This document shows positions 18,578-41,701 of a DNA stretch of 64,000 bases, piece after piece; within the stretch, counting starts at the first letter, position 1; each line of letters starts with the position of its first letter. Source of the DNA: Novosphingobium sp. IK01 (lineage in GTDB: Bacteria > Pseudomonadota > Alphaproteobacteria > Sphingomonadales > Sphingomonadaceae); assembly GCF_033242265.1 (NCBI RefSeq), contig NZ_BTFW01000002.1, positions 1 to 64,000 on the forward strand. The letters run 5' to 3'. The notes beneath the pieces are model-generated. The model had not been told where the DNA came from. It saw only the letters and a program-made list of their open reading frames with translations, and did not search any database. A program made the translations under genes and the position numbers.

Positions 18578-19444
18578 TCAACGTGACTTTCCCAAAACAG
18601 GGTCCTTCGCCCTCACCGCAACGTTCCGCATGCCACCGATCCGAGAAACAACTTCCCCTCTCTCGATCGCATCACCAATCTGCCAGTGAAGCTGGGCCAA
18701 TTTTGCCGGCAATGCGCCTTCCTCCCCGCTGTCTTGCGCCTGGGTAAACAGATCAACCGCACCAGCCAGTTCGGCCTCAGCAAACAATGCAGGGCCAGCA
18801 CCCGCCCGCCAAAGATCGGCAAGCTCACCAGCACGACGCTGCCGAGCTTCAGCAGATTGATCTTCCACGTCGGTACGGCGCGGCACGGGCGGCAGATCCG
18901 CGCCCCTCTGTGCCAACTCGTCACGCGTGATCGCGGCCAAGCGATATCTCAAGACGCGGGTTTCCGGGGTATCGGTAGGGGATGGCTGGTACTGGCGCGC
19001 CAGGATCATCACCAACTCGGCCGTGCCCGCACTGGCCACGGTTTCCCGCCATGCGATCAAGGCCCTGTCCGGCGTCACCATATCGGCAGGTTGGTTGACC
19101 GAGAAGCGCTCAAGCAACGGGTCATCGGCCACATTCACGGGAAGAGGCGCGCCATTTCCGATAGCCGCTGCATGAGCTAACGCCGCGACCTCTGCAACCC
19201 GTTCGATGCCGTCGCGCTGGATGGCCCGATCATCGATCATACGCGCGAGCATCGTCTCAAGGATGGGCACCAGATCAGTCACCCCCCCCTGTCCGGCATC
19301 GATCGTGTCGAGCCGATGGAGGATTTCGGCGTGCGACTGCTCGATCCTGGCGTTGCTCTTCGCAAGCCTATCAAGCTGCCCCTGCATCAGGGTCAGGGAA
19401 TCCAGAATGGCTGCCAGGGCGACATGCGATGGATCATCTGTCAT
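18578..19444 (-). CDS. Unknown mobilisation-operon protein
   Basis: A 288-aa protein of unknown function, encoded directly after the relaxase (4-nt ATGA overlap). The N-terminal 70 residues are predicted coiled coil (LDSLTLMQGQLDRLAKSNARI and onward), the rest is helical and Ala/Glu-rich, and no TM segment or catalytic motif is visible. Tight coupling to the relaxase implies a role in relaxosome assembly or DNA transfer. That is inference from position only. Confidence 0.75.
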   Translation of the reverse strand: MTDDPSHVALAAILDSLTLMQGQLDRLAKSNARIEQSHAEILHRLDTIDAGQGGVTDLVPILETMLARMIDDRAIQRDGIERVAEVAALAHAAAIGNGAPLPVNVADDPLLERFSVNQPADMVTPDRALIAWRETVASAGTAELVMILARQYQPSPTDTPETRVLRYRLAAITRDELAQRGADLPPVPRRTDVEDQSAEARQRRAGELADLWRAGAGPALFAEAELAGAVDLFTQAQDSGEEGALPAKLAQLHWQIGDAIERGEVVSRIGGMRNVAVRAKDPVLGKSR

Positions 19445-20865
19445 CGTTCTGGCCCATCCCGATTTCGCGAGCGGTCACGCTGCTCTCTGTCACGCTCCTG
19501 CACCCGGCGAAGCATTTCCTCTGCCGGTTTGCCGGCCACTTGATCGGGCGGCTGATTGGCCTGCTCCATCAAAGCCCGCAGCCTTTCAAGATCGGGTCCG
19601 GCGTGGCGCTTACGATCCGCCGGGTTTGGATCATCTGCCGAGGCCGAGGCTTCCTCTGATCTGATTCCCGCCCGCATGTCACGCGAACGAGCCAGCGCCG
19701 CCGACAACGGGTCAAGCGTATCGACTTCAGAACCTGATCGCGATAGCGCCAGCGATCGGACGTGTGGATCTGCCCCCATATCTCCAAGCCGCGCCGCTCG
19801 CGCCGAATTTGCTTCAGGCGCCGGCATCGTCGAGATGAACTTTTCCAGACTTCGTGCGATCACCTGATCGGCAAGCGACGGAGAGGCAGACAGCTCCTCG
19901 ATCGAGCGCTCATAGGCCCGACGAACAATGGCCTGCTGGGACGCCAGCACGGCATCGACAGGATCGCCAACACCGCTTTCGTGCAGCCGCTGGGCACGCT
20001 CGGCGCGGCTCTTGTCAACGCGGGGAACCTGGCCCTTCCCGCGAACCTTGATCGCCGCGATGGGCTCATGCTTGGGGTCAATCCCCCTTGCCCGAGCTGG
20101 CGTGGCATTCGCCTCAATGCCACGGTCACGCAGCTTTTCCGCGAAGCGCTGCCGGTAACGAAAAAAGTCGTCCCGGTTCGGGTGGAAGCGCCGGCCGTCA
20201 TGGTCGCGCCGTGCGATGGTGAGGTGAACATGGGGGTGATCGCGATCGACATGCAGCGCCGCCACCCACGACCGATTGGCAAATTCTTCGCGCGCGAAAT
20301 CCAAGGCAGAATCACGCAACCGCTCAGGGTCCGTCCCCGCAGGCATCGAAAGGATCATCGAAATGGAAGTGGCCCCCTTGCGACGGGCATCGCCACCCAT
20401 CTCCCATTCCTGCCAGTCCTGCGCGAGGATCTGCATGTCTCGGGCATCATGCAGCACCTCCTCATCGCTGGTGTAGAGCGCGACCTGTTTGCCCTCCCCA
20501 TGCCCCAGACGGCTGATGTAGGAAAAGTTAGCAAGGACATGACCGCCACCATGCTGGCGCCCAGTCGCCCGCACTATCACCTCCGGCACACGCCGCGCTG
20601 TTCGCTCCATTGCCGCGATGGCGTGCCCGCTGACGACAGCATGAGAGCCCCCTCCAAATGCGTGCTTCACCTGCCGGTCGGAGCGAAGCCTGACGGCAAT
20701 GGGCGCCGTTCTCGGGGCCATCGCTGCCGCCATGACTGACACAATAGCGCCGCTCGATTGGGGACGTTTCCCCTTCCCTCCCCCCGTCCCAGGCCGATAC
20801 CGCTTAGGGGGCGCAAAGACCCCTGCCATGGAGTCAAGCGTGCCGGATGAAAGGCGGAAACTCAT
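19441..20865 (-). CDS. Conjugative relaxase (MOBP/VirD2-type)
   Basis: A 474-aa relaxase/mobilisation nuclease that would nick oriT and pilot the transferred strand. The three-His metal motif is visible as HVDRDHPHVHL, about 210 residues in. The candidate catalytic Tyr is upstream, in the region of FSYISRLG. The C-terminal half is Arg/Ala-rich and disordered-looking, suitable as a secretion signal. I chose the ATG at 20865 because it overlaps the mobC stop (ATGA); an upstream extension is possible but would overlap mobC more. The candidate oriT lies about 630 nt upstream. Confidence 0.88.
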   Translation of the reverse strand: MSFRLSSGTLDSMAGVFAPPKRYRPGTGGGKGKRPQSSGAIVSVMAAAMAPRTAPIAVRLRSDRQVKHAFGGGSHAVVSGHAIAAMERTARRVPEVIVRATGRQHGGGHVLANFSYISRLGHGEGKQVALYTSDEEVLHDARDMQILAQDWQEWEMGGDARRKGATSISMILSMPAGTDPERLRDSALDFAREEFANRSWVAALHVDRDHPHVHLTIARRDHDGRRFHPNRDDFFRYRQRFAEKLRDRGIEANATPARARGIDPKHEPIAAIKVRGKGQVPRVDKSRAERAQRLHESGVGDPVDAVLASQQAIVRRAYERSIEELSASPSLADQVIARSLEKFISTMPAPEANSARAARLGDMGADPHVRSLALSRSGSEVDTLDPLSAALARSRDMRAGIRSEEASASADDPNPADRKRHAGPDLERLRALMEQANQPPDQVAGKPAEEMLRRVQERDREQRDRSRNRDGPER

Positions 20866-21443
20866 CGCGGACGATCCCTGAATGCGTCCACCCAATAACC
20901 GACCTCACCACCGACATAGGACGAGATAGCCCGCCGCGTCTCCATCAACAGCGCCTTCAGATCTCCGCAGGTTTCGAGGAATGGCGCCGCGATACGCGCG
21001 ACCTCAAGCGTACTGCCCGGTTGATTGGCGGCATTCATCGCATGAACCGCCTGGTTGATGTTTCGACCGATGGCGAGCACCTGCTTGCGCAACTTCCCCA
21101 ACTCGACTTGGCTGACGGGGGCTAGGCGCAACGCGCCCGCTCGATCCCAAAGCTGCCACCGTAAGGTGCGCTTAATCCACTCATTCCGCGACAGCCCCAA
21201 AGGGGCGCCGGCGGCGTCAATCGCATCCACTTCACTGCGATGAAGGCGGACAGTGACGCGAACTTGATCGTCAGGATGTCCCCTGCCCTGCTGCTCGGGG
21301 ATCGGCAGGCTATCATTCGCTGGCTCCAATACGGAACGAGCCAACGTGCGCGCGATCCAAGCGCTGCGCGTCTGACCATGCGCCGACGCTACCCGATCGA
21401 TCTCGGCGATCAGCTCATCTTTCAGTCGCAGGCTTACCATCAT
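20862..21443 (-). CDS. mobC: MobC-like relaxosome accessory protein
   Basis: A 193-aa protein with an N-terminal ribbon-helix-helix-like segment (MVSLRLKDELIAEIDRVASA) and a second RHH-like stretch (VRVTVRLHRSEVDAID, then LSRNEWIKRTL). A MobC-type segment (AIGRNINQAVHAMNAANQ) follows. Proteins of this type bind oriT and assist relaxase nicking. The gene starts 50 nt from the palindrome/nic candidate and is coupled to the relaxase. The start is uncertain between 21443 and 21440. Confidence 0.85.
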   Translation of the reverse strand: MMVSLRLKDELIAEIDRVASAHGQTRSAWIARTLARSVLEPANDSLPIPEQQGRGHPDDQVRVTVRLHRSEVDAIDAAGAPLGLSRNEWIKRTLRWQLWDRAGALRLAPVSQVELGKLRKQVLAIGRNINQAVHAMNAANQPGSTLEVARIAAPFLETCGDLKALLMETRRAISSYVGGEVGYWVDAFRDRPR

Positions 21444-21492
21444 CTCAACAGCCCCGAGCAGCGGCGCCGATTGGATCAATGTATTACATTGG

Positions 21493-21512
21493 TGCCAATT
21501 GGCATATCCTGC
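21493..21512 (+). other. oriT: Candidate origin of transfer (oriT)
   Basis: A perfect 12-bp palindrome (TGCCAATTGGCA, 21493-21504) is followed immediately by TATCCTGC (21505-21512). This matches the IncP-type nic consensus YATCCTG^Y and would put the nick between 21511 and 21512 on the plus strand. Its position just upstream of mobC and the MOBP-type relaxase is where such an oriT is expected. The functional assignment is inference. Confidence 0.7.
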
Positions 21513-21779
21513 CATACCTTCACATCTCACATTTCCTACTCCATAAACCCTCCCCATTCAAGCAGGTCACGACAATAACGTGGAAGAGGGGGATGATCGT
21601 AATGGGCCTCAAACGGCGAAACGGCACCGCTTGGCTGTGCCGCTGATGAGCATCAACAGAGCCAAATTGCGGTCGAACGTTTTTGCGACACGATCAATGA
21701 TCTGGCGCGCAGATGGCCACGCCACAATCATGGTAGCATCATGCCAACACGTAGCAGCGATCATTTACGGGGAGGCATT

Positions 21780-28970: not shown

Positions 28971-29011
28971 TTTTTGTGGTACGAGCCGGGAACGAGATGG
29001 GGAATATGATC

Positions 29012-29449: not shown

Positions 29450-29456
29450 CCGCTCT

Positions 29457-30719
29457 ATGACGTGGGCGATCGTGGACATCGCTAATTTCTATGTCAGCGC
29501 CGAGCGGGTCTTTGATCCACGGCTGCGGCGGGTGCCCGTCATCGTCCTATCGAACAACGATGGTTGCGCGATTGCCCGCAGCGAGGAGGCCAAAGCGCTG
29601 CATATCAAGATGGGCGATCCGGTGTTCAAAATCCGTGATGTCATCAAGCGCCACGGGATCGAACTGCGATCGTCGAATTACGAACTCTATGCAGACATGA
29701 ATCGCCGGTTCAACGCGGTCATTGCCGAGCATAGCGACGTGGTGGAAATCTACTCGATCGATGAGAGCTTTTTCCGCCTCCCCGTCCTTGCCTGCGGCAA
29801 CGGCGATGTCGGGACGGCCGAGAAAGTAAGGGCAGCAATCGCCCGCGTGACCGGCCTGCCCACCCGTATAGGGTTGGGGCCGACCCGCACCCTTTCCAAG
29901 GTAGCCAACGCGCTGGCAAAGGCGACCGAAAAGGTCTGGGGCGGCGTGGTGGACCTGCACGACATTGCCCTGCGGACACGAATGCTGGCTCAATGGCCGG
30001 TGCAGGAAACCTGGGGTGTGGGGCCAGCACTGGCCGCGCGGCTGCGCCCGCTTGGTGTCCGCACCACAGGGGATCTGGCGGCCTTGCCGCCAGCAGTGGC
30101 CCGCGATGTGGGAACGGTCATCCTCGAACGCTTGGTCCGCGAGTTGAACGGGATCGAGTGCGAGGATTTCAAACCAGAGCCGGATGTGCGCAAGGCAACC
30201 GCTGTGACGCGGCAGTTTGGTGGCCCGGTTACGGATCTGGCCGAGCTGCGCGAGGCCATGGTGCGGCGCGCTGTGCGCGCCGCCGAAAAAATCCGCCATC
30301 AGGGCCTCGATGCCACGCGGCTCATCGCCTTTGCCCATGGCTCACGGTTCAAGGCCAACGCACCATCGGCAAGCCGCCAGACCCGCCTATCGCCACCCAG
30401 TAACGATCCGCGCGTGATCGCGAGCCTCGCAGGCAATATGATGGAGGCGATGTTTCAGCCTGGCGCGGTCTATACGAAATGCGGGGTGCTGCTGGAGGAG
30501 CTGATCCCAACGGGGACGGGGCAGAGAGATTTCTTTGCCGCAGAAGATCCGCGCGCGCCCTCGTTACTGGCGGCGATGGATGATCTCAATGGCCGGTACG
30601 GGCGCGGCACAATCCAACTCGCGGCGCAGGGCTTTGGCAGTCGGACCATCGACACGAAGCGGAGCCAGAAAAGCCCTTCGTGGACCACGAATTTCGCCGA
30701 AATTCCCGTAGCCCGGTGA
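29457..30719 (+). CDS. umuC: DNA polymerase V catalytic subunit UmuC
   Basis: A 420-aa Y-family polymerase for translesion synthesis. The start MTWAIVDIANFYVSAERVFDP carries the first metal-binding Asp, and IYSIDESFFRL carries the second acidic pair. A helix-hairpin-helix little-finger region follows (TWGVGPALAARLRPLGV). The C-terminal DUF4113-like segment ends near YGRGTIQLAAQG. The length matches UmuC. Plasmid umuDC operons raise mutagenesis and UV tolerance of the host. Transcribed with umuD under the LexA box. Confidence 0.95.
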   Translation: MTWAIVDIANFYVSAERVFDPRLRRVPVIVLSNNDGCAIARSEEAKALHIKMGDPVFKIRDVIKRHGIELRSSNYELYADMNRRFNAVIAEHSDVVEIYSIDESFFRLPVLACGNGDVGTAEKVRAAIARVTGLPTRIGLGPTRTLSKVANALAKATEKVWGGVVDLHDIALRTRMLAQWPVQETWGVGPALAARLRPLGVRTTGDLAALPPAVARDVGTVILERLVRELNGIECEDFKPEPDVRKATAVTRQFGGPVTDLAELREAMVRRAVRAAEKIRHQGLDATRLIAFAHGSRFKANAPSASRQTRLSPPSNDPRVIASLAGNMMEAMFQPGAVYTKCGVLLEELIPTGTGQRDFFAAEDPRAPSLLAAMDDLNGRYGRGTIQLAAQGFGSRTIDTKRSQKSPSWTTNFAEIPVAR

Positions 30720-30779: not shown

Positions 30780-32576
30780 TTATGCAGCCTTGGACATTTC
30801 GCCTTCGTCGTCGGGCTGCTCGGGAACGGAAGGCAGGGGATTGACCGGGGCAGGCATCCAACCTGCGGGCAGACGCTCGGCCACCGCCACCGCCAGATCG
30901 TTGCGCTTCATCTTAGCGCAGTTCTCAGCCGCATTCGGACCGCAAGCCTCGGTGAGGATAGCCAGCAAGGCTCCCTTCTTCATGCGGGTGAACACCTCAC
31001 ATCCCGGCGCCCAGACATCGGCCATATTGAGCCCGGCGGCTTCGGCATAAAGGTCAGCGGTGCGCAACCGGGTTTCATCCGCGTCCCCATTGTGCTGGGT
31101 CGCATCGATGGTGATCGCCACCAGTCCGGCAAGAAGCTCCATTTTCTCGGCAGGAGCCATATTCCGAATGGCTGTAAACCGCCCCTCTTCTGGTACAGCC
31201 GCAAAGCGCTGCGCCATGGCCGTTTCCACGCGCACGATGCTGCTACCACCCATCAGTTCGTCATCCACCTCCGGGGCGTGGCGAATGGGCGAAACCGATG
31301 CCGCGAGCCGATAGCTGTAAGTTCCATGCAGAAGCTGGGCCGCCATCGTGTCGAGAAGAATATCGAGGGCAAGGGCAGGATCGAAGGCAACGGCCTGCTG
31401 CAACGCCAGCGTCCGAATGCCGCTCAACTGTTCGATAAGCGCCTTGGAATAGGGGCCTTCCGCCGCCTTCGGCCTATCGCCCCGGTCACTATCGTCATCC
31501 GAACGCAGCCGGATATAGCGAACATCCAGAGCGCCGCGATAATCGATATAGGCAACGACACCGTGCTGCGCGCGAAGTTCGGGCGGATAGCTCTGCAAGG
31601 CGGTTTCCAGCGCGTCGAGGCGATCATGCAGGTCTGCAAGTTCCTCGCTCTCAGGGTCGCTTTCCGTGATTTCATCGATGCGCGCGGAAAGCTGTTCGAT
31701 TTCAGCCGCCTCGGCCTCACTCGCCTCCCGCTTCACCGGATGGAGCATAGGACGGCAATAGATGTCATCGGGGCGCGTGGTCGATGCCTCCACCGTCTTC
31801 CACCCCATATCGCGCAGTTCCGCGCCGATCTGCGCCATCTTGGCCTCGGCAAGCTGCTCAAGCAATTCGGGATCGTCGGCGTAACCCGATCCGTCCTTGC
31901 CGAACAAATCAGCGGTGATAGTTCCGCCCGCGGCCTCGTAAGCCTCGCGGCCCACAAAAATAAAGGTGCCGCAATCGGTGGCCACCTTCTCACTGGTAAG
32001 AGCCTGCCGAATGCGGTGGGCGTTGTCGCCATGCCGGTTGAACAATTCAACCTGCTGGGCTGGGTCGCTGGTGATGGTGAGCGCACGGGCCGTCTCGATG
32101 CTCAACCGGTCCTCACCCATTTCGTCGAGCAGCACCGAGGCCAGGCTGCCAAGGCTCAACAGCTTTTTCACATGGGCTTCGGAATAGCCGAAACGCACCG
32201 CGATGTCCGCCGCGCTCAATCCGCCCTGATCGCGCAAAGCGGCATAGGCCCTGACGGCATCAGCCGGATGCATTTCTTCCCTCTGGGCATTCTCGGCAAG
32301 CGACAGCTCGACCGCTTCCTCCTTGCTCCGCACCACCACGGCGACGGGATAGGTGCCGGTAATGGCTTTGCGCTTTTTCAGCAGTTCGAGCGCACGAAAA
32401 CGGCGCCCCCCGGCGAAGACATGATAGGCCCCATCTTCTTCGTAAGTGGCGAGGTTCTGGATCAGGCCATGGGCGGCGATGTCATCGGCCATGCTTTCGA
32501 TGGCGCTGGGCTTCACGCGGCGCACGTTGAGCGGGGAAAGGCGAAGCTGCGAGAATTTCACGGTCTGGATGGTCAT
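30780..32576 (-). CDS. ParB/KorB-type nuclease-fold protein of the leading region
   Basis: A 598-aa protein with an N-terminal ParB/Srx domain (start MTIQTVKFSQLRLSPLNVRR, then GLIQNLATYEED and VFAGGRRFRALELL), followed by a KorB-like HTH (LSAADIAVRFGYSEAHVKKLLSL). The C-terminal 350 residues are acidic and of unknown function. Large ParB-domain proteins of this kind are frequent in leading regions of conjugative plasmids; their role is unclear. The ATG at 32576 has an AAGGGAA site upstream, and a repeated hairpin element starts 96 nt upstream of it. Confidence 0.85.
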   Translation of the reverse strand: MTIQTVKFSQLRLSPLNVRRVKPSAIESMADDIAAHGLIQNLATYEEDGAYHVFAGGRRFRALELLKKRKAITGTYPVAVVVRSKEEAVELSLAENAQREEMHPADAVRAYAALRDQGGLSAADIAVRFGYSEAHVKKLLSLGSLASVLLDEMGEDRLSIETARALTITSDPAQQVELFNRHGDNAHRIRQALTSEKVATDCGTFIFVGREAYEAAGGTITADLFGKDGSGYADDPELLEQLAEAKMAQIGAELRDMGWKTVEASTTRPDDIYCRPMLHPVKREASEAEAAEIEQLSARIDEITESDPESEELADLHDRLDALETALQSYPPELRAQHGVVAYIDYRGALDVRYIRLRSDDDSDRGDRPKAAEGPYSKALIEQLSGIRTLALQQAVAFDPALALDILLDTMAAQLLHGTYSYRLAASVSPIRHAPEVDDELMGGSSIVRVETAMAQRFAAVPEEGRFTAIRNMAPAEKMELLAGLVAITIDATQHNGDADETRLRTADLYAEAAGLNMADVWAPGCEVFTRMKKGALLAILTEACGPNAAENCAKMKRNDLAVAVAERLPAGWMPAPVNPLPSVPEQPDDEGEMSKAA

Positions 32577-32671
32577 GTTTCTGTTTCCCTTGTTCTGAAT
32601 AGAGCCGAAGGCGATGGGCTCACCATCGACTTCTGGCCCTCGCCGAGAGCAGGGGTGAATGTGCGGGGACT

Positions 32672-32745
32672 GGTCGCGGGGGAGGGGGATCACCCGGCCT
32701 GCACCGGAGCGCAGCGCAGGGAAGGTTGGGGACACCCCCGCGACC
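32672..32745 (-). repeat. Hairpin element A, copy 1
   Basis: Arms GGTCGCGGGGG (32672-32682) and CCCCCGCGACC (32735-32745) are perfect, with inner complementary stretches (CACCC / GGTTGGGG region). Homology to the other two copies extends over about 200 nt (32610-32790). It ends 96 nt before the ParB-like ATG. Same strand and spacing as copies 2 (39707) and 3 (41094). Confidence 0.75.
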
Positions 32746-32890
32746 ACCAAGCACCGCCAAAGGCGGTGACGGCCTGGTCCTTGCACAGAGGGGGCAGCGC
32801 CCCTTCAAGACGGGCAACGACACGCCGCGCAGCGGCTCACTTTGTTGGATTGGCGCGCGGAGAAAACGAGCCCCCCCGCGCGCGCCCCAC

Positions 32891-34366
32891 CTATCCCGGC
32901 TTGCGGATCGCCAGAACAACCGTGTTGACGTTGGTGCCAGCGTGAGCGAATGAACCGGGAGGCAGGTCAAACCACTTATCTTTGCGTCCCCAGCGGCAAA
33001 CCGGTGCGGCCTGCTCGACAAGCCGGTGCAAGGCCAGATGGCGCTTGTCCTCGGCAAATTCGGCGCGCGCGGACATAATCGCCACCAGTACGCCCCCCGG
33101 CTTCAAAAACTGGTAGGCGTGGCGTACATGGTCGCAGTCGCGGCCGCGATCAAAGGGCGGGTTCATCACCACGCGGTCAAAAGGCGCAAAGTCTGCCGGG
33201 TTGAGGGCCAGAAAGTCGCCTTCTATCACGTCCGCAAAGCCGTGGAGAACGCCCAATTCGTGCGCGAGGCCGGGCTGAATTTCAACGCATGTGACCTCGG
33301 CGCCTGCATCACGGGCAGGCTTAGCCAGCGCCGCGCTTCCGGCGCTCGGCTCAAGGATGCGCTCGCCGGGCTGAATCTCGGCGCGCTCGATCACCATTTT
33401 CGCGATGTCCTCACAGGTGAAGAAGGCCCCAAAGTTCTTGGCCGGGGTAAGGTGGAAGCTGGGGGCATCCTCAGCCTCGGTGGTGTCGTAGCCGTCCCCG
33501 ATCACCTCGCCGTAATACTCGGCCAGGAGGAGATTCACGGCATTGAGAAGGTCTTTGTTTTCGAACCAGATATGCAGGTTGCCGTTCTTGAAAATCCGCA
33601 CCCGCCAGTAATCGCCGTGAATGACGGTCGGCAGGCTGGCACGGTAGCGGCCCGCGTCGGTGACAAGGCCCGCGATGCTCTGGCTTTCGGAAACAGGCGG
33701 CTTGCCGTCCAGTTCGCGAAAGACACGCTCAACATCGCGCAAGGTGTCGCGGCGCTCATAGCGATCCCATGAACCCCACTCGTTCAAGGCCCTGTCGATG
33801 ATGAGGCGCGATCCGATTTTGAAACCGTCGTGCGAGCGAAAGCGGCGGTCCAGCTTGGCAAAAACGTTCGCGATCCCGCGCAGATATAGTTCGCGCCGCT
33901 GGCCCCAGATATTGCCGAAAGTGGCCGAACAGTTTTCGGCGGTGAAGGCGGCGGGCGCATCGCGCAAACCGTCATGAAATTCCCGGCGCGCCTGCTCGTC
34001 CAGCAACTGATCGAAGCCGAGTTGATCCATCAGCGCGCGCCAGCATCGCCGGTCAACGGTCTGGGTCAGAACGGTTGTGAAGTTCTCACGCGCGGGAATC
34101 TCGGTGATCTTGCGGGTTTCCCGGTCGGCCTTCTGAAGCGGCTCGGCGGTGATGAAAGCCTTGGTCAGCTTGTCCTCGTAGCGGTCGCCGCTGGTCGAGA
34201 GCGCCAGCGTTCCGGCAATGGAGAGCCGCCCGGCGGCATCGCGGGTGGCGTGATAGTGGTCATAAAGATCAAGCCACATGGCAATGGTATGGTCGCGCCC
34301 CTTGCAAATGTCGGTGATCTGCTGCGGGGTCATGAGATCCTGACCTGTCGTCGGCTGCTCGAACAT
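32891..34366 (-). CDS. DUF4942-type SAM methyltransferase-like protein
   Basis: A 491-aa protein. The N-terminal two thirds match the DUF4942 type (containing FGNIWGQRRELYLRGIANVF and IWFENKDLLNAVNLLLAEYYG), and the C-terminal third is a class I methyltransferase with SAM motif ILEPSAGSAALAKPA and catalytic NPPF (VVMNPPFDRG). NPPF is typical of N6-adenine DNA methylation. In a leading region it could modify entering DNA to evade restriction; this is inference. It lies between hairpin element A copy 1 and repeat B copy 1, with an AGGAG ribosome-binding site. Confidence 0.85.
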   Translation of the reverse strand: MFEQPTTGQDLMTPQQITDICKGRDHTIAMWLDLYDHYHATRDAAGRLSIAGTLALSTSGDRYEDKLTKAFITAEPLQKADRETRKITEIPARENFTTVLTQTVDRRCWRALMDQLGFDQLLDEQARREFHDGLRDAPAAFTAENCSATFGNIWGQRRELYLRGIANVFAKLDRRFRSHDGFKIGSRLIIDRALNEWGSWDRYERRDTLRDVERVFRELDGKPPVSESQSIAGLVTDAGRYRASLPTVIHGDYWRVRIFKNGNLHIWFENKDLLNAVNLLLAEYYGEVIGDGYDTTEAEDAPSFHLTPAKNFGAFFTCEDIAKMVIERAEIQPGERILEPSAGSAALAKPARDAGAEVTCVEIQPGLAHELGVLHGFADVIEGDFLALNPADFAPFDRVVMNPPFDRGRDCDHVRHAYQFLKPGGVLVAIMSARAEFAEDKRHLALHRLVEQAAPVCRWGRKDKWFDLPPGSFAHAGTNVNTVVLAIRKPG

Positions 34367-34620
34367 GAACTTCGCTCCTCTTGGGCTGTGCCGTCTGCCT
34401 GTGGCTGCGGCTCTGACCTGCTGGCGAAGCGCGGGATGGGGAGGGAGAAGCGAAATCGACAGGAGTTGGTGCGGGCCGCAAGCCTAGAGAGGCCCGACGC
34501 GCCAGGCGCGCCGTCCTGGCCGATCTTGGCGGCAACCCGGTCATGTCTATTTTGCTTCGGGGAACGAAAGGGCAGGAGCCTTTGGTGTTCCCCCTTCACT
34601 AGAAGGTGGCGGCCGTGCCG

Positions 34621-34720
34621 CCTCGAAATTGAGCGAGGATCGTCACCCCATGGGACGAAACCGCATAGCGGGTTCGGTCGGAGCCTAGCGGAGATAGAGC
34701 CGTGCCGTTAGGTCGCTCCC
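34621..34720 (+). repeat. Intergenic repeat B, copy 1
   Basis: A roughly 100-nt conserved block with core GGGACGAAACCGC, a small hairpin (CGAAACCGC / GCGGGTTCG), GGTTCGGTCGGA and GGAGATAGAGCCGTGC, ending in CGCTCCC. Other copies are at 37012-37081 and 41269-41369, all in the same orientation. No coding frame is conserved. Copies 1 and 2 flank the interrupted plus-strand gene. The rest of 34367-34620 holds no gene. Confidence 0.7.
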
Positions 34721-34878
34721 CTGTTACCGACATTTCCATAGTGCAAATTGCATTTGGCTTCGTGGACGATATCCAGGACACATTGTATATTCACGGCATG
34801 ACAGAGCCTGCTTACCGCGAGAAATATGTCGCCTTCATCGACCTGCTCGGATTTTCAAACTTGGTCCAGCAATCGGCC

Positions 34879-36302
34879 GTTAGCGTCCGCGCTCGTGGTG
34901 TAATTTCCGGTTTAGATTGAGGCGATCGCATGGGGTGGGGCATGCCCCACCCCATGCGATTTCGATCTCGGTGGCCACCGGGCTCATCGGTAAGGTGGAG
35001 TTACCACACTTCACACGCCCACCGAGGAGTTGATCTCGATGACCGACGACAGACTACCGCTTGCCGAACTGATGGCGAAGACCGGGGATGGAGATTTTCT
35101 GCGCACAATCGCAGAGAGTGTTTTGCAGATCATCATGGAAGCCGACGTTGACGGCTTGGTCGGTGCTGGCCGCCATGAACGATCCGGCGACCGGACGACC
35201 TGGCGCAATGGCTACCGCGACCGCAGCCTCGATACCCGGCTCGGCACGCTCAACCTCAAGATCCCCAAGCTGCGGACCGGCGCTTACTTTCCGGGCTTTC
35301 TGGAACCGAGGAAGACCGTTGAGAAAGCGCTGGTCGCGGTGATCCAAGAGGCGTGGATTGCTGGCGTCAGCACCCGGCGCGTGGATGAACTGGTCCAGGC
35401 CATGGGTATGAGCGGCATCTCCAAGTCCTCGGTGTCCAAGCTGTGCAAGGACATCGATGAGCGCGTCCATGCCTTCCTGAAGCGCCCGCTCACCGGCGAT
35501 TGGCCCTACCTCTGGCTCGACGCTACCTACCTCAAGGTGCGCGAGGGCGGGCGGATCGTCAGCGTCGCCGCGATAATCGCCGTAGCCGTCAACACCGAGG
35601 GCAAGCGCGAGATTGTCGGCCTCCACATCGGCCCTTCCGAGGCTGAGGTGTTCTGGTCCGATTTCCTCAAGGACCTCGCACGGAGGGGGCTGACTGGCGT
35701 GAAGCTGGTGATCTCCGACGCCCACGAGGGCCTCAAGGCGGCGATCACCCGAGTGCTCAGCGCCACCTGGCAGCGTTGCCGCGTCCACTTCATGCGCAAT
35801 GCCCTGGCCTATGTGCCCAAGGGCCAGAACACTGTTGTTGCCGCCGCCATCCGCCAGGTCTTCCTCCAGCCCGATCACGCTGCCGCAACACAGGTCTGGC
35901 GCCAGGTCGCCGACCAGTTGCGCGCCCGCTGGCCGAAGCTCGGCGCCTGCATGGACGACGCCGAGCATGACGTGCTCGCCTACATGGCCTTCCCCGAGCA
36001 GCACCGGGTGAAGTTGCACAGCACCAACCCGCTGGAACGCCTGAACAAGGAAGTGAAGCGCCGTGCCGATGTCGTCGGCATCTTCCCGAACGAGGACAGC
36101 ATCATCCGCCTCGTCGGCGCCGTTCTGCTCGAGCAGAACGACGAATACCAACTCCAACACCGCTACATGCAGATTGAGGGCATGGCAGCCCTCGCCACAC
36201 CAATCATCGAGGAGGTTCAGCCGCTACAGATTACACCCAAGGCCGCCTGAAAATGCAGCCCGATGGCCACACCCGAATTTACACCACATTGACGGACGCG
36301 AC
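34879..36302 (+). mobile_element. IS256-family insertion sequence, complete
   Basis: A 1,424-bp element flanked by a perfect 9-bp direct repeat, CAATCGGCC (34870-34878 and 36303-36311). The ends are imperfect inverted repeats sharing GCGTCCG and GTGGTGTAA (left GTTAGCGTCCG..., right complement GTCGCGTCCG...). It carries one transposase gene. The intact target duplication indicates a recent, simple insertion. Confidence 0.92.
35039..36250 (+). CDS. IS256-family transposase
   Basis: A 403-aa mutator-type DDE transposase. It shows the N-terminal RTTWRNGYRDRSLDTRLGTL pattern, first Asp in YLWLDATYLKVR, second in LVISDAHEGLK, the signature WQRCRVHFMRNAL, and the final Glu in STNPLERLNKEVKRR. Complete and probably active. 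The ATG at 35039 is chosen over an upstream TTG. Confidence 0.95.
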   Translation: MTDDRLPLAELMAKTGDGDFLRTIAESVLQIIMEADVDGLVGAGRHERSGDRTTWRNGYRDRSLDTRLGTLNLKIPKLRTGAYFPGFLEPRKTVEKALVAVIQEAWIAGVSTRRVDELVQAMGMSGISKSSVSKLCKDIDERVHAFLKRPLTGDWPYLWLDATYLKVREGGRIVSVAAIIAVAVNTEGKREIVGLHIGPSEAEVFWSDFLKDLARRGLTGVKLVISDAHEGLKAAITRVLSATWQRCRVHFMRNALAYVPKGQNTVVAAAIRQVFLQPDHAAATQVWRQVADQLRARWPKLGACMDDAEHDVLAYMAFPEQHRVKLHSTNPLERLNKEVKRRADVVGIFPNEDSIIRLVGAVLLEQNDEYQLQHRYMQIEGMAALATPIIEEVQPLQITPKAA

Positions 36303-37011
36303 CAATCGGCCGATGACAAAATGGCTCTGAAGGCTGTTGTCGATGCCATCGACCGCCTCAAAAACACCGCCTGCGAAAATCCAGCAACGAACACTCTCAT
36401 CACTTATTTCAGCGATTGTCTGGTGCTTTCATGCGAACGCAGTCCTCGTGCATTAATGGGCATGTTGCAGAATCTAGTGACGATCGCGGAAAACCTGCTT
36501 GTCGTCGATGTGATGGTGCGTGGCGCCCTGACAGTCGGTCAAATTCATCACGACCGCCATTTCATGTTCGGGCCAGCCATGATCGAAGCTTATCGAATGG
36601 AGTGCAAAGAGGTCAGTCACCCGGCGATCATGTTCAGCCCCGCAATCAGCGCGGACATTGAGGCGTCTGATCTTCAGCCTTTGATGATGCACGACAACGC
36701 CGATCCAGAGCGAAAATATCTGCACTACCTGATCAATTTTGAAGCGTATGATCCTACGCCGCTAGCGGGAACCGTGATCCTCGATGGTCCCGCGCGGTTG
36801 GTACGGCACTACCTCGCCAAGAGAATTGCAGAACACAAAGACGAACGCCTACTTGCGAAGGCGATCTGGTTAGAACGCTATTGGAATGACACGGTGGGAA
36901 CTCGTGGAATTTTGGGAATGGTAGATCGGGACGCCGATCGCATTCCGCCAGATGCACGGCCATTCCGTAGTCAGCGCTTCATTGCGGGCTGAGAGCCAGA
37001 CCCAAAATCTC

Positions 37012-37081
37012 GGGGCTGAAACCGCAAAGCAGGTTCGGTCGAAGCGGAGCGGAGATAGAGCCGTGCCGCAAGGCCGCTCCC
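37012..37081 (+). repeat. Intergenic repeat B, copy 2
   Basis: A shorter copy of the repeat described at 34621, with core GAAACCGCAAAGCAGGTTCGG and GGAGATAGAGCCGTGCCGC, ending GCCGCTCCC. It lies between the stop of the interrupted gene and the stop of the Abi-like gene. Confidence 0.7.
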
Positions 37082-37094
37082 GGAAATACGAATG

Positions 37095-37808
37095 TCAGGG
37101 CTTTTGAGCGATCAGGGCCATGACGGTTTGCTTGCCATCCATCCAGGCCGCGGCGGTAGGGCTTCGCCAGGCAATCATGTCATGGATGCGCTGATAGTCG
37201 TCGGCCAGATTTCGGGTAAAGACTGGCTCATGATGGGCAATCCGGTTGCGCAGGTGCCGGATGGCCTGAAGATCGGCATAGGCTTGCGCCCGGCATAGGG
37301 GAATGGCCTGTGCGAGCGGATCCCAAGAAAAGAACGTCCGGAAATGCGCGTTCCAAAGTCGGCTATCCTGGCCGGCTGTGAAGATGTTTTCCCAGAAGGC
37401 AAATTTGAGTTCAGCAATGATCTTGCCGGTTGTGGGCAGCCTGTGCGCGCAGACCTGAAGATCATCGGCCGGATTGTAGCGAAATTTGCTCTTCGGGCGT
37501 GGCAAGCTGCGGATAAAACCGTTGTTCCACGGCCAGTTTGCACCATGGACAGCCTCGATCGCTTCAGCGATCCCGTTGCGCACCGCCACTTCGCAGACCT
37601 GGAGCGGCACGATCAGGGCCGAGGATATATCCAGATTCCACGCATAGAGTTCGAGCGCCATTTCCCGGTCATTGCCCATGGCCTGAAGGTAGGTGGCGAA
37701 ACGCGGGGCGGAGATGACGCCTGGCAGATCCTGAAGCTCGGCGGGAGAGAAAGGCAACGTCGCTATCCTGTCTGCGCACGGTATTGACGAACCCGTCAAC
37801 ACCACCAT
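37095..37808 (-). CDS. Abi-like HEPN protein
   Basis: A 237-aa protein of the Abi_2-like type. It contains LQVCEVAVRNGIAEAIE, a central FAFWENIF, and the HEPN-type RNase motif HLRNRIAHHEPVF near residue 187 (R-x4-H). HEPN Abi proteins are RNA-cleaving abortive-infection effectors or toxins. No antitoxin gene is adjacent, so it may act alone or be controlled in another way. The start is uncertain: the ATG at 37808 is used, but homology seems to begin about 20 residues later at FSPAELQDLPG. Confidence 0.78.
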   Translation of the reverse strand: MVVLTGSSIPCADRIATLPFSPAELQDLPGVISAPRFATYLQAMGNDREMALELYAWNLDISSALIVPLQVCEVAVRNGIAEAIEAVHGANWPWNNGFIRSLPRPKSKFRYNPADDLQVCAHRLPTTGKIIAELKFAFWENIFTAGQDSRLWNAHFRTFFSWDPLAQAIPLCRAQAYADLQAIRHLRNRIAHHEPVFTRNLADDYQRIHDMIAWRSPTAAAWMDGKQTVMALIAQKP

Positions 37809-37868
37809 ATAAGAGGCTCTCGGCTTTGAGAACGCGGGCTAACGCCCCCCCTCATCGTCTAAGGAAAT

Positions 37869-37896
37869 AAAAGGCCCGCCGAAAGGCGGGCCTTTT
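37869..37896. terminator. Strong bidirectional terminator
   Basis: AAAAGGCCCGCC pairs perfectly with GGCGGGCCTTTT around a GAAA tetraloop, with A-rich and T-rich flanks on either side. It ends the minus-strand operon 39605-38062 and isolates the Abi gene downstream. Confidence 0.9.
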
Positions 37897-37977
37897 ATTT
37901 TTCTGCGCAAACACCGCAAATTTCCACCATCATGGGCAAACCGATAGAGCGCCGCGCAGCGGCTCCCTCTTCATTCT

Positions 37978-38018
37978 GTCCTTGTGGCGGCGCGCGTAAC
38001 GCGCGCCGCCACAAGGAC
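37978..38018. repeat. Perfect 41-bp palindrome
   Basis: 20-bp arms starting GTCCTTGTGGCGGCGCGCGT (37978-37997) and its exact complement (37999-38018) flank a single central A. There is no T-run, and a separate conventional terminator lies 80 nt away. It could extrude as a cruciform or fold as a hairpin on the transferred strand. Confidence 0.9.
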
Positions 38019-38061
38019 GCGCCGCGCCCAGCGGCACAGCATGGGCGCGGCGTCTCCATCA

Positions 38062-38298
38062 TTATGGCGAAATCACTTCTATGATGCCGCGCCCCTCGCG
38101 GATGACGGGCCGCCCGAAATCATCGGTTTCCGGCTTGCGCCAGTGATAGGCAAAGCGGCCCGCCTCGCCCGCGATCGGCGTCACCGTGTAGGCGATCCGT
38201 TTGGATTGACCGGAAGTCCAGCCCTTGCCGATGATCTCGGCAAGGTGGCGCTTGTTGGTCGCGGTCAGGTGAAGGCCCTCGATCAGACAGATTTGCAT
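38062..38298 (-). CDS. Small unknown leading-region protein
   Basis: A 78-aa protein (start MQICLIEGLHLTATNKRHLA) with mixed alpha/beta character and no recognised motif; ends GRGIIEVISP. It is the last gene of the 39605-38062 minus-strand operon, 13 nt after its upstream neighbour. Small proteins of this kind are typical of plasmid leading regions. Function unknown. Confidence 0.65.
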   Translation of the reverse strand: MQICLIEGLHLTATNKRHLAEIIGKGWTSGQSKRIAYTVTPIAGEAGRFAYHWRKPETDDFGRPVIREGRGIIEVISP

Positions 38299-38311
38299 GG
38301 GTCCACCTCGA

Positions 38312-39100
38312 TCAAAACGCGAAAGCGGCTTGGCCGCTCACCTCGGTATAACTGGTGGCCGGTCCAGCGGTGAAGCGATCCCGGCCAAGCTGGGTCCATT
38401 GCAGGAATCCGGCCCGATCATGGGAAAACCAACCGTCCTCGATGCCGTGAATGATGGCCCAAGCCTGCTCTTCAGCGACGATTCCGGGGCCGATATTGAT
38501 GGGCCAAAATTCAGAGCCGCTGTCCTGCCTGCACAGGCTGGGCGCAGAAAACTGGCGGATGATGACCGCCCGGTCATCGGGTTCGCACGCGCCCAGCTCG
38601 CGCATGATATGGCGGGCTTGGCCAATGGTGATATAGCCCTTGCCCGCCCTGCTTTCGTGGTGCGAATGACGGCACCCATAAACGACAGCGCGAAAGATCG
38701 AAGCCGGATCGGTAAAGTGCTGCGTCTCGATCAGTTCGCCCACCAAGCCTTCGCAGATAAGATCCACGGCGTGAAACCATGCCCCTTTGCCCCGCTCGGT
38801 GTAACCGTATGCGTTGGTGATCCCTTCGTGCGCCACCTCGATCCCCAGCGCCTCGACGTGCTGCACGAAAGGATGCGCGGCAAGGCCGGGGTGCATCAAA
38901 CCAATTTTACGCGGCTCGCCCTTCTCCGGCCGGATGACTTCGAGCGGCCCCCGGAACAAGCGCGAAGGCAGATTCCACGGGGAAGGAAGGGGGAAGCCTT
39001 GGGGCACATGAAGCGCCCCGTTGATGTCCAAAAGAAAGCTGTTGGCGGCAAGGCCAGCGGCAACGATCTGGTCGCCCAGCGTGTCGGTCGCGGCGCTCAT
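38312..39100 (-). CDS. Unknown leading-region protein
   Basis: A 262-aa soluble protein, unrecognised. It contains a Cys/His cluster (RAVVYGCRHSHHESRAGKGY) that could bind metal, and a C-terminal IVAEEQAWAIIHGIEDGWFS segment. Coupled to the gene upstream by a 4-nt overlap (ATGA). No catalytic family can be assigned. Confidence 0.7.
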   Translation of the reverse strand: MSAATDTLGDQIVAAGLAANSFLLDINGALHVPQGFPLPSPWNLPSRLFRGPLEVIRPEKGEPRKIGLMHPGLAAHPFVQHVEALGIEVAHEGITNAYGYTERGKGAWFHAVDLICEGLVGELIETQHFTDPASIFRAVVYGCRHSHHESRAGKGYITIGQARHIMRELGACEPDDRAVIIRQFSAPSLCRQDSGSEFWPINIGPGIVAEEQAWAIIHGIEDGWFSHDRAGFLQWTQLGRDRFTAGPATSYTEVSGQAAFAF

Positions 39101-39360
39101 TGGCCTACCCCCGAAATGATCGCGCCGAAACCAAAACCCTCGGCAGCGTCCTCAATGGTGGTCTCAAGGCCGTCAAAATCTTCCTCCGGCCCCAAAAGGT
39201 CTGCAATCTCGATGACGGTGGCAAGATCCGCGCCGTGGTTCTCTGCCAAGTCTTTGATGTAACCGAAGCGGTCAAAATTGCCCTCCTCCTCATAGCGCGA
39301 AAGGTCGATGGTCCGTGCAGCGTTGAGCCGGAGAATGGTTGCGAGCGGGGTGCCGGTCAT
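39097..39360 (-). CDS. Small acidic protein of the leading region
   Basis: An 87-aa acidic protein (start MTGTPLATILRLNAARTIDL, Glu/Asp-rich C-terminal half). The high negative charge and small size recall DNA-mimic anti-restriction proteins, but no specific family is recognised. Overlaps both neighbours by 4 nt, so it is translationally coupled. Confidence 0.65.
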   Translation of the reverse strand: MTGTPLATILRLNAARTIDLSRYEEEGNFDRFGYIKDLAENHGADLATVIEIADLLGPEEDFDGLETTIEDAAEGFGFGAIISGVGQ

Positions 39361-39605
39361 GCGCTCAACTCCGCATAAGTGGCGCTGCATTCATAGCGGA
39401 TCGCATCGCCATCCCACATGGGGCCGATCAAGCCTGTGAATTTGGGCGCGCCTTGAAGCTCTTGTCGCTGGCTCGCATTGCTGTTGAAGCCCCGGCACCG
39501 AAAACCCTCGACGGCGGCGCGGGCGGCCACGATCTGCGCGCTGGCTCCCTCGATTTCGATCGTGCGGAAACCTTGCTGAGCGGTCTGATAAATGCGGATT
39601 TTCAT
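39357..39605 (-). CDS. Small unknown protein, first gene of its operon
   Basis: An 82-aa protein (start MKIRIYQTAQQGFRTIEIEG) with a beta-rich N-terminus; ends ECSATYAELSA. It opens a four-gene minus-strand operon and has hairpin element A copy 2 about 100 nt upstream, as the ParB-like and ArdC genes do. Function unknown. Confidence 0.68.
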   Translation of the reverse strand: MKIRIYQTAQQGFRTIEIEGASAQIVAARAAVEGFRCRGFNSNASQRQELQGAPKFTGLIGPMWDGDAIRYECSATYAELSA

Positions 39606-39706
39606 ACGCTTGTTTCCCTTTCTCTTTTGATGGAGCCGAAGGCGATGGCGTCCATCGACTTCTGCCCGCTGGCGAAGTGGGTCGGGGAATGGCGCAAACA
39701 CGGGCT

Positions 39707-39778
39707 GGTCGCGGGGGAGGGGGATCACCCATCCTGCACGGAGCGTAGCGAAGGAAGGATGGGGAAACCCCTGCGACC
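39707..39778 (-). repeat. Hairpin element A, copy 2
   Basis: GGTCGCGGGGG (39707-39717) and CCCCTGCGACC (39768-39778) pair with one wobble. It is homologous to copies 1 and 3 over about 200 nt (39632-39830), including GGCGATGG-GTCCATCG upstream and CCACCAAGCG downstream. It ends 102 nt before the ATG at 39605. The rest of 39606-40058 contains one more stem-loop (39923-39959) and no gene. Confidence 0.75.
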
Positions 39779-39922
39779 ACCAAGCGGAGCGCGGCACGCG
39801 CGCAGACGGCTTGGCCCTTGCGCCAGGGGGCCGGAACAGGCCCCGGAGCTTCACAAACAACGCGACGGAATAGCCGTCTCCGCTTGCGCTGGAGCCAAGG
39901 CGACGATTTACCATAGAGGCGG

Positions 39923-39959
39923 AATACGGCGGCGGGGGCAACGCTACCGCCGCCGTATT
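39923..39959. terminator. GC-rich stem-loop after ardC
   Basis: AATACGGCGGCGG pairs perfectly with CCGCCGCCGTATT around an 11-nt loop, about 100 nt past the ArdC stop. There is no U-run on the minus strand. A terminator or a structured element; the former fits its position. Confidence 0.5.
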
Positions 39960-40058
39960 ACGCCGGCAAATCACGATCTATGGGGCAATTGTGGTCATGG
40001 TTTTTGTCTTTCCCTCCTGATGAAAGGAGGGCGACAGGGGCCGCCCTCCGGGATGACG

Positions 40059-40997
40059 TCAGGCGGCAATGGCCTGCGCGGGCGTGTCTACGTGTGAAAG
40101 GATCAGCTCGCTTGCGGCTTGCGCAGCGGTTGCGGCGCGGAAAATGGCCCGCTTGTCGTTACGCAAGGCGGTCAACCAAGAGGCAACATAAGCGGCGTGA
40201 TCCTCACGCTCAGTCGGTTCCATCCCAAGTTGCGCGCAAAGCATGGCTGCGCCGACTTCGGCAATAAGCTCTTCCTCCGCCCTGATTTCTCGCGATTTCC
40301 CGTAATCGCGCAGGGTTTCGCGGGCGAGGCGCTTGGCGTGGCCGGTGCTATGCACGGCTTCGTGCGCAAGGGTCGCATAGAAGGCATTGCCGCTTTCAAA
40401 GTCAGCAAAGGCGGGCATCTGGATGTGGTCGGCAGCGGGGCTGTAATAGGCGCTCGATCCGCCCTCGGCGTAGGGCACGGGCCAGCGGGCAAATGCCGCA
40501 TCAAGATCAGCGTCCCGCTGATCGCGGTTCTTGATCTCGATCCGGGGCACGGGGTACTTGCTCATATCGAGACCATCGATTTGCTCGACGTTGAAAACGA
40601 CATACTTTTTCAGGAATTTACGGGTTGCTTCCTCGCCCTCGCTGGTGGTGACAGGCTCGCCGGTTTCCCCATCCTTGGGGGTGAAAGTTCCGGCATGAAC
40701 GACAAGATTGCCCTTCTCCCCCTTGCGAACCTGCCCGCCCAGCTCGGCGGCTTGGCGGTAGGTCATCCAATAGGGGTTAATGAAACCGCGCGTCATAGCG
40801 GCGGTCCAGAGCAAAAGGATATTGATACCGCGATAGGCGGTGCCCTCATGCCGCAAGGGCAGGGTTGCAGCGCCGGAAGCCCAACGGGGCGACCACGGGC
40901 GCGTGCCAGCTTCCAGCATGGCGATAATCTGGGCGGTGACTTCCTCGTAAACATCGGCGCGGGGGGCAGTGTTCTGGCGGGTGGTCTTGCGGGTCAT
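40059..40997 (-). CDS. ardC: Anti-restriction protein ArdC
   Basis: A 312-aa ArdC-type protein. The N-terminal ssDNA-binding domain (DUF1738-like, with RPWSPRW and YRGINILLLWTAA) precedes a zincin-like metallopeptidase domain with HEAVHSTGH (HExxH, about residue 213) and the downstream Glu in EELIAEVGAAML. ArdC protects incoming plasmid DNA from restriction and is characteristic of leading regions. Hairpin element A copy 3 lies 97 nt upstream of its ATG. Confidence 0.93.
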   Translation of the reverse strand: MTRKTTRQNTAPRADVYEEVTAQIIAMLEAGTRPWSPRWASGAATLPLRHEGTAYRGINILLLWTAAMTRGFINPYWMTYRQAAELGGQVRKGEKGNLVVHAGTFTPKDGETGEPVTTSEGEEATRKFLKKYVVFNVEQIDGLDMSKYPVPRIEIKNRDQRDADLDAAFARWPVPYAEGGSSAYYSPAADHIQMPAFADFESGNAFYATLAHEAVHSTGHAKRLARETLRDYGKSREIRAEEELIAEVGAAMLCAQLGMEPTEREDHAAYVASWLTALRNDKRAIFRAATAAQAASELILSHVDTPAQAIAA

Positions 40998-41093
40998 GTG
41001 CTTGTTTCCCTTCCTCGATGGAGCCCAAGGCGATGGCGTCCATCGGCTTCTGCCCGCTGGCGAAGCCGGGGGGGTTGAACCGGCATGAGGGCT

Positions 41094-41165
41094 GGTCGCG
41101 GGGGAGGGGGATCACCCGTCCTGCACGAAGCGCAGCAAAGGAAGGGTGGGGACACCCCCGCGACC
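41094..41165 (-). repeat. Hairpin element A, copy 3
   Basis: Perfect arms GGTCGCGGGGG (41094-41104) and CCCCCGCGACC (41155-41165) enclose an inner hairpin (ATCACCCGTCCT with AGGAAGGGTGGGGA). It lies 97 nt upstream of ardC. The conserved block spans 41018-41220. Confidence 0.78.
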
Positions 41166-41268
41166 ACCAAGCGAAGCGCGGCACGCGCGCAGACGGCCTG
41201 GCCCTTGCCGGGAAGGGGGGAGGCCGCCCCCCTTGATCTGGAAAAGGAAATGTGGCCGCCCTGGCGGC

Positions 41269-41369
41269 CTCAGCTTCGAGCGAGGATCGTTGCCCGCATG
41301 GGACGAAACCGCTCGGCGGGTTCGGTCGGAACGCAGTGGAGATAGAGCCGTGCTGCCAAGCCGCTCCCG
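41269..41369 (+). repeat. Intergenic repeat B, copy 3
   Basis: A full-length copy of the repeat at 34621, containing GAGCGAGGATCGT, GGGACGAAACCGC, GGGTTCGGTCGGA and GGAGATAGAGCCGTGC. It is located between the ssb stop (41381) and hairpin element A copy 3. Confidence 0.72.
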
Positions 41370-41380
41370 CTTGGGAAAAA

Positions 41381-41701
41381 TTACTGCTCGCCGCCTGCCT
41401 TTGCCAGGACAGAGAAGGTGTCAGCAATCAATTCCGTCCGATAGGCAATCTCGTTGCCCTCCCCGTGGCTGGTTTCGCGCATTCGTCCAGTGATGTGAAC
41501 CAGATCGCCTTTGTCAGCACCCTCAATCTGCTCACGGACATTCGAGAAGCCGACCACGCTGTTCCAATGAGGGTCGCTCTTCCACCCGTCGCCATCACGG
41601 CGGTTGTAATTGGCCGCGACGGTGACATAGATCACCTTGTCGCGCGGCGTGATCTTGCCGATCCGGCCGATGATCCGAAACTCAGCGATGTTCTGCGGCA
41701 T
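41381..41701 (-). CDS. ssb: Single-stranded DNA-binding protein (SSB-like), copy 2
   Basis: A 106-aa OB-fold protein (AEFRIIGRIGKITPRD, then HWNSVVGFSNVREQ and GDLVHITGRMRET). It is a paralogue of the SSB at 24308 but clearly diverged. It ends LAKAGGEQ, again without an acidic interaction tip. The Tn3 inverted repeat starts only 28 nt upstream of the ATG, so its native promoter has been displaced and expression probably depends on the transposon side. Confidence 0.85.
   Translation of the reverse strand: MPQNIAEFRIIGRIGKITPRDKVIYVTVAANYNRRDGDGWKSDPHWNSVVGFSNVREQIEGADKGDLVHITGRMRETSHGEGNEIAYRTELIADTFSVLAKAGGEQ

Follow-up and report, generated by a model that had tools for sequence, protein, structure and literature searches.

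Here we describe a hairpin element that occurs in three near-identical copies on the plus strand of a Novosphingobium sp. IK01 plasmid (contig NZ_BTFW01000002.1; the window analysed is the first 64 kb of this 100.8-kb contig), to the right of a conserved predicted origin of transfer (oriT) and ahead of minus-strand genes. Comparison of related copies suggests, with a probability that we put at roughly 60%, that it is a cis element of single-stranded DNA which drives early transcription of leading-region genes from the transferred strand, and protective genes would probably be active in this way before the plasmid turns double-stranded. The strand on which the element folds, its fixed distance to the genes, the nature of these genes, and its repetition before operons together fit an element that is active only while the plasmid is single-stranded.

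The three copies precede a gene for a ParB-like protein, an operon that starts at 39605 (the 39605 operon), and the antirestriction gene ardC (Table 1). Read 5' to 3' on the plus strand, the element consists of stem 1 (up to 12 bp, free in sequence with pairing kept), GGAGGGGGATC at the purine-rich internal loop (AGGGGGA opposite NA), stem 2 (about 10 bp, including CCC/GGG), and an apex with an invariant TGCAC, a variable apical part and an invariant GGAA, followed by the closing strands. An outer stem, counted in the window only, varies in sequence and keeps its complementarity (TGTGC/GCACA, TGGCGCAA/TTGCGCCA, and CCGGCA/TGCCGG). Distances from the GGAGGGGG core to the ATG are 104, 110, and 105 nt for the ParB-like gene, the 39605 operon, and ardC, respectively. 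A first-pass annotation of this DNA had reported the repeats at these places, which we recover as repeat families D2-D5, and had given the spacing as 96, 102, and 97 nt; these values equal ours minus 8 nt, the stem having been begun 8 nt before the core, and with the 12-bp stem of the model described below the distances become 92, 98, and 93 nt. The exact core, present three times in the window, appeared in 0 of 100 shuffles; on this and on the covariation of the stems a chance repeat was rejected.

Related copies were collected from several sources. The element was found by blastn in 77 plasmid records, and an exact scan for the core across one genome per species returned at least 120 stretches, from which no prevalence figure was derived; among the matches listed, 111 of 120 stretches contained the whole hairpin and 102 of 120 were alphaproteobacterial by record title. 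Isolates with whole hairpins outside the alphaproteobacteria include Thiothrix, Pseudomonas, Pseudoxanthomonas, Dokdonia (Bacteroidota), and Cerasicoccus (Verrucomicrobiota), and metagenome bins with the whole hairpin, for which misbinning is possible, are titled Saprospiraceae, Bacteroidetes, Chlorobiaceae, and Nitrospina. One copy from Nitrosospira shows the two halves but failed to parse as a whole hairpin, and at least two matches (Mycobacterium and Opitutaceae) look like chance. The initial description of the hairpins as an alphaproteobacterial counterpart of known single-strand promoters was too narrow, given whole hairpins in gammaproteobacteria, Bacteroidota, and Verrucomicrobiota. Viral contigs gave a single stretch with the element, and a phage-associated repeat was rejected on this basis.

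Exact-core matches in loci L001-L129 and the window numbered 156, of which 142 parsed as whole hairpins and 131 were distinct. Near-duplicate thinning reduced these to 102, of which 81 had short loops and 70 were aligned to build a covariance model (R1); 123 of the 131 had enough flanking sequence for a spacing count, and 96 were used for an energy comparison. Under strict filters R1 detected the element in 12 of the 398 genomes searched at the level of the phylum and in 13 of 385 at that of the class (scores of reported matches, 39-92 bits), and a search of the IK01 genome gave no copies beyond the three in the window. Rfam returned no match on the copies in the 20-45 kb part of the window (E up to 1) or at seven further loci (gathering score), and membership of a known Rfam family was therefore rejected. 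R1 likewise gave no match on the Ti-type rhizobial plasmids L149 and L150, despite a similar leading-region make-up. By eye, L149 has other hairpins before DUF736 and ardC-like genes (9700-10030 and 12200-12660), one of which carries TGCAC and GAAGTGGAGG as in the apical part of the element, perhaps representing a distant class.

The stems covary, a check that the first-pass annotation had proposed: across the 70 aligned copies 92.6% of cells are paired versus 73.2% in shuffled alignments, and 301 cells show double changes versus 94 in shuffled alignments and at most 88 in slid controls. In many copies further hairpins are visible between the element and the start codon; the one nearest the element (HP2) is only partly confirmed, being recognised in 76 of 96 stretches, and at each of three positions 51-52 of these 76 are paired, some in the wrong register. 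The core is nearly invariant in the aligned copies, partly due to the exact search pattern. Such invariance would suit a double-stranded repeat serving as operator of a plasmid repressor, with repression relieved once the plasmid reaches a cell that lacks the repressor; p576 is an example, its establishment genes being described as under repressor control (PMC8708921). A duplex site, however, would require no compensatory changes in the stems and no asymmetry between the strands, and we find an operator scarcely credible.

The strand on which pairing is maintained can be read from mismatched cells. At positions 4-7 of stem 2 the 131 distinct copies give 426 Watson-Crick, 80 G.T, 4 A.C, and 14 other cells, and at positions 3-10 of stem 1 they give 887, 45, 9, and 107, respectively, with the stem 1 G.T excess spread across all eight positions. 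Since any G.T pair becomes an A.C mismatch when the other strand is considered, pairing seems to be kept by selection on the strand complementary to the mRNA; by these counts the folded strand is the template strand, the role the first-pass annotation had assigned to it. Folding energies of 96 copies, computed with RNA parameters, are lower for the template strand in 72 cases and for the mRNA strand in 17 when the element is considered, and in 75 and 10 cases, respectively, when the stretch up to the gene is considered. The asymmetry and the energies speak against a riboswitch-like or attenuator mRNA leader transcribed from an ordinary upstream promoter. A leader of this kind would account for a ribosome site at fixed distance, and most measured cases leave upstream room for its promoter, but the mRNA strand is the one that pairs worse (G.T:A.C of 80:4 and 45:9) and Rfam has no match on the copies. 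We give a structured leader very little credence and rejected it because the folded strand is opposite to the mRNA.

Strand asymmetry cannot separate single-stranded DNA from RNA of the same sense. An antisense RNA transcribed outward from the gene side, folding and repressing the leading genes in established cells, would have that sense, and antisense RNAs with multiple stem-loops spanning a leader are a common feature of plasmids. No sigma70-like site was found in the antisense direction in 72 copies (a weak test), however, and the bias towards the transferred strand reported below would not follow from an antisense RNA alone; we judge such an RNA distinctly improbable.

The element is tied to the start codons of leading-region genes. 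Counting a start codon with a ribosome-site-like motif, followed by at least 60 open codons or a frame running off the locus, we found one 85-115 nt away on the expected side and strand in 107 of the 123 distinct copies, versus 3 of 117 on the other side and 872 of 20000 random positions. Hairpins unconnected with such start codons had been named at the outset as an outcome that would speak against the proposal, and the count goes the other way. The 107 first open reading frames (ORFs) were clustered by blastp, and one member of each larger cluster was scanned with Pfam: 33 are ParB-like, 22 ArdC, 15 DUF932, and 6 ArdA, with rarer DUF3768 (5), methylase (4), and single RadC and DUF2958 genes, the rest having no Pfam match or being unscanned. 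In Pseudomonas veronii, an ArdA gene likewise lies behind the element.

The relaxase gene is typically located in the lagging region, according to PMC11541004, so the element is expected on the strand opposite the relaxase coding strand. In 40 chosen loci or genomes with longer contigs (L071 was left out) we counted 93 copies, 50 of them with a relaxase within 50 kb; relaxases of the MobA/VirD2 type (listed PF03432) and MobA/MobL type (PF03389, only the three hits on element-bearing contigs) were counted, and TrwC-type (MOBF) enzymes were outside the search. With the transferred strand predicted from relaxase gene direction, 43 of the 50 copies (30 of 34 contigs) lie on it. Relative to the closest relaxase gene, 43 of 50 copies also fall on the leading side, and 41 of these 43 are on the predicted transferred strand. 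Reading seven plasmids by hand, including that of the window, placed 21 of 24 copies on the predicted transferred strand (W02 and W06 were left out of the strand judgement; for W03 and W07 relaxase direction was taken from mobC). The earlier proposal that the entering strand is the template agrees with 43 of 50 copies, as far as the entering strand can be predicted from oriT and relaxase.

We propose that the transferred strand would enter the recipient 5' end first, and that each copy of the element would fold on that strand. The folded DNA would recruit a polymerase, namely the host RNA polymerase, possibly with another factor, and RNA synthesis, with the transferred strand as template, would proceed leftwards to the gene that lies about 95 nt from the element. 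In this way the genes of the leading region (ParB-like, ArdC, DUF932, ArdA, and methylases) would be expressed before second-strand synthesis, and conversion to double-stranded DNA would remove the fold and shut expression off.

Several observations weigh against this single-strand promoter. The stem 2 G.T cells come from two positions only (53 and 27 of 80), G.T pairs in the predicted fold of the element are about equally frequent on both strands (1.69 and 1.74), and pairs with any double change number 14 versus 12.4 in shuffles, 32 of 500 of which reach 14. Because the copies are related, the counts overstate significance. Sixteen of 123 copies have no start codon at 85-115 nt, including by title four Paracoccus, four Caulobacter, and three Bacteroidota copies, two of the latter having an ATG with a ribosome-site-like motif at 74-77 nt. 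The median gap to the upstream co-directional ORF is 248 nt (74 of 131 copies), which leaves room for an ordinary promoter. Seven of 50 copies lie on the other strand, and inverted copies are found next to mobilisation genes (Caulobacter, Phenylobacterium, Paracoccus) or, in pDE2, on the far side of the relaxase. A scan of either strand for sigma70-like sites found none in 72 copies; since the same rule also comes up empty in the 490 bases before F ssb, the reported place of Frpo2, it was withdrawn as a test against Frpo. In the window, a promoter scan of 30.5-42.4 kb, which weighs neither way, gave three sites, all on the plus strand, versus 2.9 in shuffles.

The strongest rival is a single-strand initiation site, at which primase or RNA polymerase primes the complementary strand on the fold, the genes then being expressed from the duplex. 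Strand and direction would be the same for it as for a promoter, and the lack of sigma70-like boxes fits it, though with the reservation that no boxes were picked up in the F region with Frpo2 either; in its title, the 1997 paper on Frpo reportedly assigns it both promoter and priming roles. Priming does not, however, require a fixed position about 95 nt before genes or up to four copies per plasmid, and we consider such a site unlikely.

Returning to a promoter on the transferred strand, the promoters of Bacteroidota differ, and the occurrence of the element in this phylum suggests recognition other than by sigma70 boxes. A bolder version, which we hold only tentatively and regard as doubtful on balance, is that the element is a second, unrelated solution to transcription of single-stranded plasmid DNA, without sigma70 boxes, recognised by its shape and invariant purine loops, and spread between Pseudomonadota, Bacteroidota, and Verrucomicrobiota. 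Passage between phyla would then imply independence from a particular host sigma factor. The element might instead rely on a protein encoded by the plasmid, for example the ParB-like one, whose gene is the commonest behind it. Inverted copies next to mobilisation genes could serve to sense, in the donor, the loss of a strand. The element also makes it possible to test directly if sigma70 boxes are needed for single-strand transcription in the first place. As a separate observation, one inverted copy in L008 precedes a gene annotated as a MerR-type regulator.

The coordinates of the element copies, the surrounding genes, and the predicted oriT are summarized in Table 1.

Table 1. Element copies, genes, and predicted oriT; positions refer to the window unless another locus or record is named.
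Feature	Position	Strand	Basis
Element before ardC	41080..41212; core hairpin 41091-41175; outer stem 41080-41085 / 41207-41212	+	R1 91.1 bits, fold, sequence
Element before 39605 operon	39690..39825; core 39704-39788; outer stem 39690-39697 / 39818-39825	+	R1 91.9 bits, fold
Element before ParB-like gene	32660..32787; core 32669-32755	+	R1 76.5 bits, fold
Further hairpins, element to ardC start codon	41017..41074	+	Repeat D5; similar layout elsewhere
Further hairpins, element to 39605 start codon	39629..39686	+	Repeat D5
Corresponding stretch ahead of ParB-like gene	32601..32655	+	Sequence, by eye
ParB-like protein gene (598 aa from ATG at 32576)	30780..32576	-	Pfam HTH_ParB, ParB_N
DUF4942 / N6-methylase-like gene, without own element copy	32891..34366	-	Pfam; R1 finds 3 copies only
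First gene of 39605 operon (82 aa), then ORFs 39097-39390 and 38312-39100	39360..39605	-	ORF list
ardC, antirestriction, ArdcN and zincin-like domain	40059..40997	-	Pfam 2.3e-37, 8.5e-41
SSB gene, without own element copy	41381..41701	-	Pfam SSB 9.9e-7
Relaxase, MobA/VirD2 type	19441..20895	-	Pfam Relaxase 9.4e-14
RHH protein gene beside relaxase	20862-21557	-	RHH_1 5.6e-6
Predicted oriT, candidate nic 21511/21512, transferred strand rightwards	21460..21519	+	17-nt block identity, blastn homology boundary
Single inverted copies near mobilisation genes	L003 10328-10410 (+); L008 19992-20076 (+); G405:C3:63607-63689; G418:C40:33801-33889; NZ_CP013266.1 28351-28435	Predicted non-transferred strand	

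The candidate nic lies inside TGGCATATCCTG/CCATA (the slash marking the nic), in a 17-nt block that two other sphingomonad plasmids, pDE2 and PP1Y Spl, share with the window letter for letter, and blastn homology of 17 plasmid records stops at 21515-21521, just past it. The geometry of the first-pass annotation, in which DNA to the right of this nic enters first, holds at the level of sequence, with an oriT that looks conserved and a nic that is predicted, and ORFs and Pfam confirm that the genes it listed are on the minus strand. Pfam gave no match on ORFs 39357-39974, 39097-39390, and 38312-39100.

The minus-strand block is broken at 34799-36992 by a plus-strand cargo ORF, itself split by an insertion that comprises a transposase-like 406-aa ORF (35030-36250), with copies of a 75-nt repeat on both sides (by eye). 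This second repeat, separate from the element, is found at 34646-34720, 37007-37081, and 41294-41368, two copies standing 12-13 nt past the stop codons of the minus-strand ssb and Abi-like genes; a 161-nt query round one copy matched 114 plasmid records, 58 of them Agrobacterium, and the repeat stands after traG in L149 and L150. A strong hairpin at 37861-37900, which separates the Abi-like gene from the operon that follows and has runs of A and T on its flanks, looks like a bidirectional terminator. A Tn3-family transposase gene (41786-44266) lies directly upstream of ssb, and because of this the region before ssb may have been lost or moved. On the opposite strand, a UmuC-like polymerase gene (29421-30719, in region 28976-30719) adjoins the leading block; many anti-defence islands are reported to be flanked by umu-like operons (PMC11541004).

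A search of the literature (titles and abstract openings, with bioRxiv and most subscription papers outside its scope) gave no report of the element, which is apparently undescribed. With its loops, stems, and spacing defined, it is a precise candidate for timely expression of antirestriction genes in alphaproteobacterial and other plasmids, and R1 can serve as a search model that points to leading regions, and to anti-defence genes not yet known, where plasmids lack annotation. In a survey of PLSDB plasmids from 2026, 18 sequences of known or putative Frpo were used as BLAST queries (PMC12826799).

Experimentally supported single-strand promoters are described for F and ColIb-P9 of enteric bacteria (PMC9849209, PMC11541004), and in F deletion of Frpo1 or Frpo2 abolished the rise of downstream fusions in transconjugants (PMC9849209). 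As presented in these sources, Frpo and ssi resemble the element in their location in the leading region, in the transferred strand being the template, in forming a stem-loop, and in occurring in more than one copy, each heading an operon. By annotation F also carries similar cargo (SSB, ParB-like, methylase, antirestriction, and DUF932 genes). In contrast, R1 scored at best 15.2 bits on the F leading region with filters off (11.3 in another run; only F was compared, with this model only), and of the 140-base folds in the stretch of F examined, the most stable ends about 325 nt before ssb, versus about 95 nt for the element. Frpo is reported to rebuild -35/-10 boxes; our scan, which picks up none in the F region either, found no such boxes in the element.

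EGeRS1 of the pLS20 family likewise consists of repeated structured regions before establishment operons, including ardC, and the one tested had no strong ordinary promoter; it differs in its length (420-751 bp), in its Bacillus host, and in that its transferred strand is the non-template strand (PMC8708921). R1 gave no match on pLS20, and EGeRS1 is a look-alike with opposite strand logic. The leading-region operons of RP4 are similarly induced in the recipient, but the authors of that study report having identified no single-strand promoter for them (PMC7314908). Rfam RNA families share the covarying multi-part fold and invariant loops, and differ in that the folded strand of the element is opposite to the mRNA. 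Taken at the level of sequence, the element would work like Frpo, belong to no family known by Rfam, R1 on F, or R1 on pLS20, and represent a new structural family of a kind of device, a single-strand promoter or priming site, that is already known.

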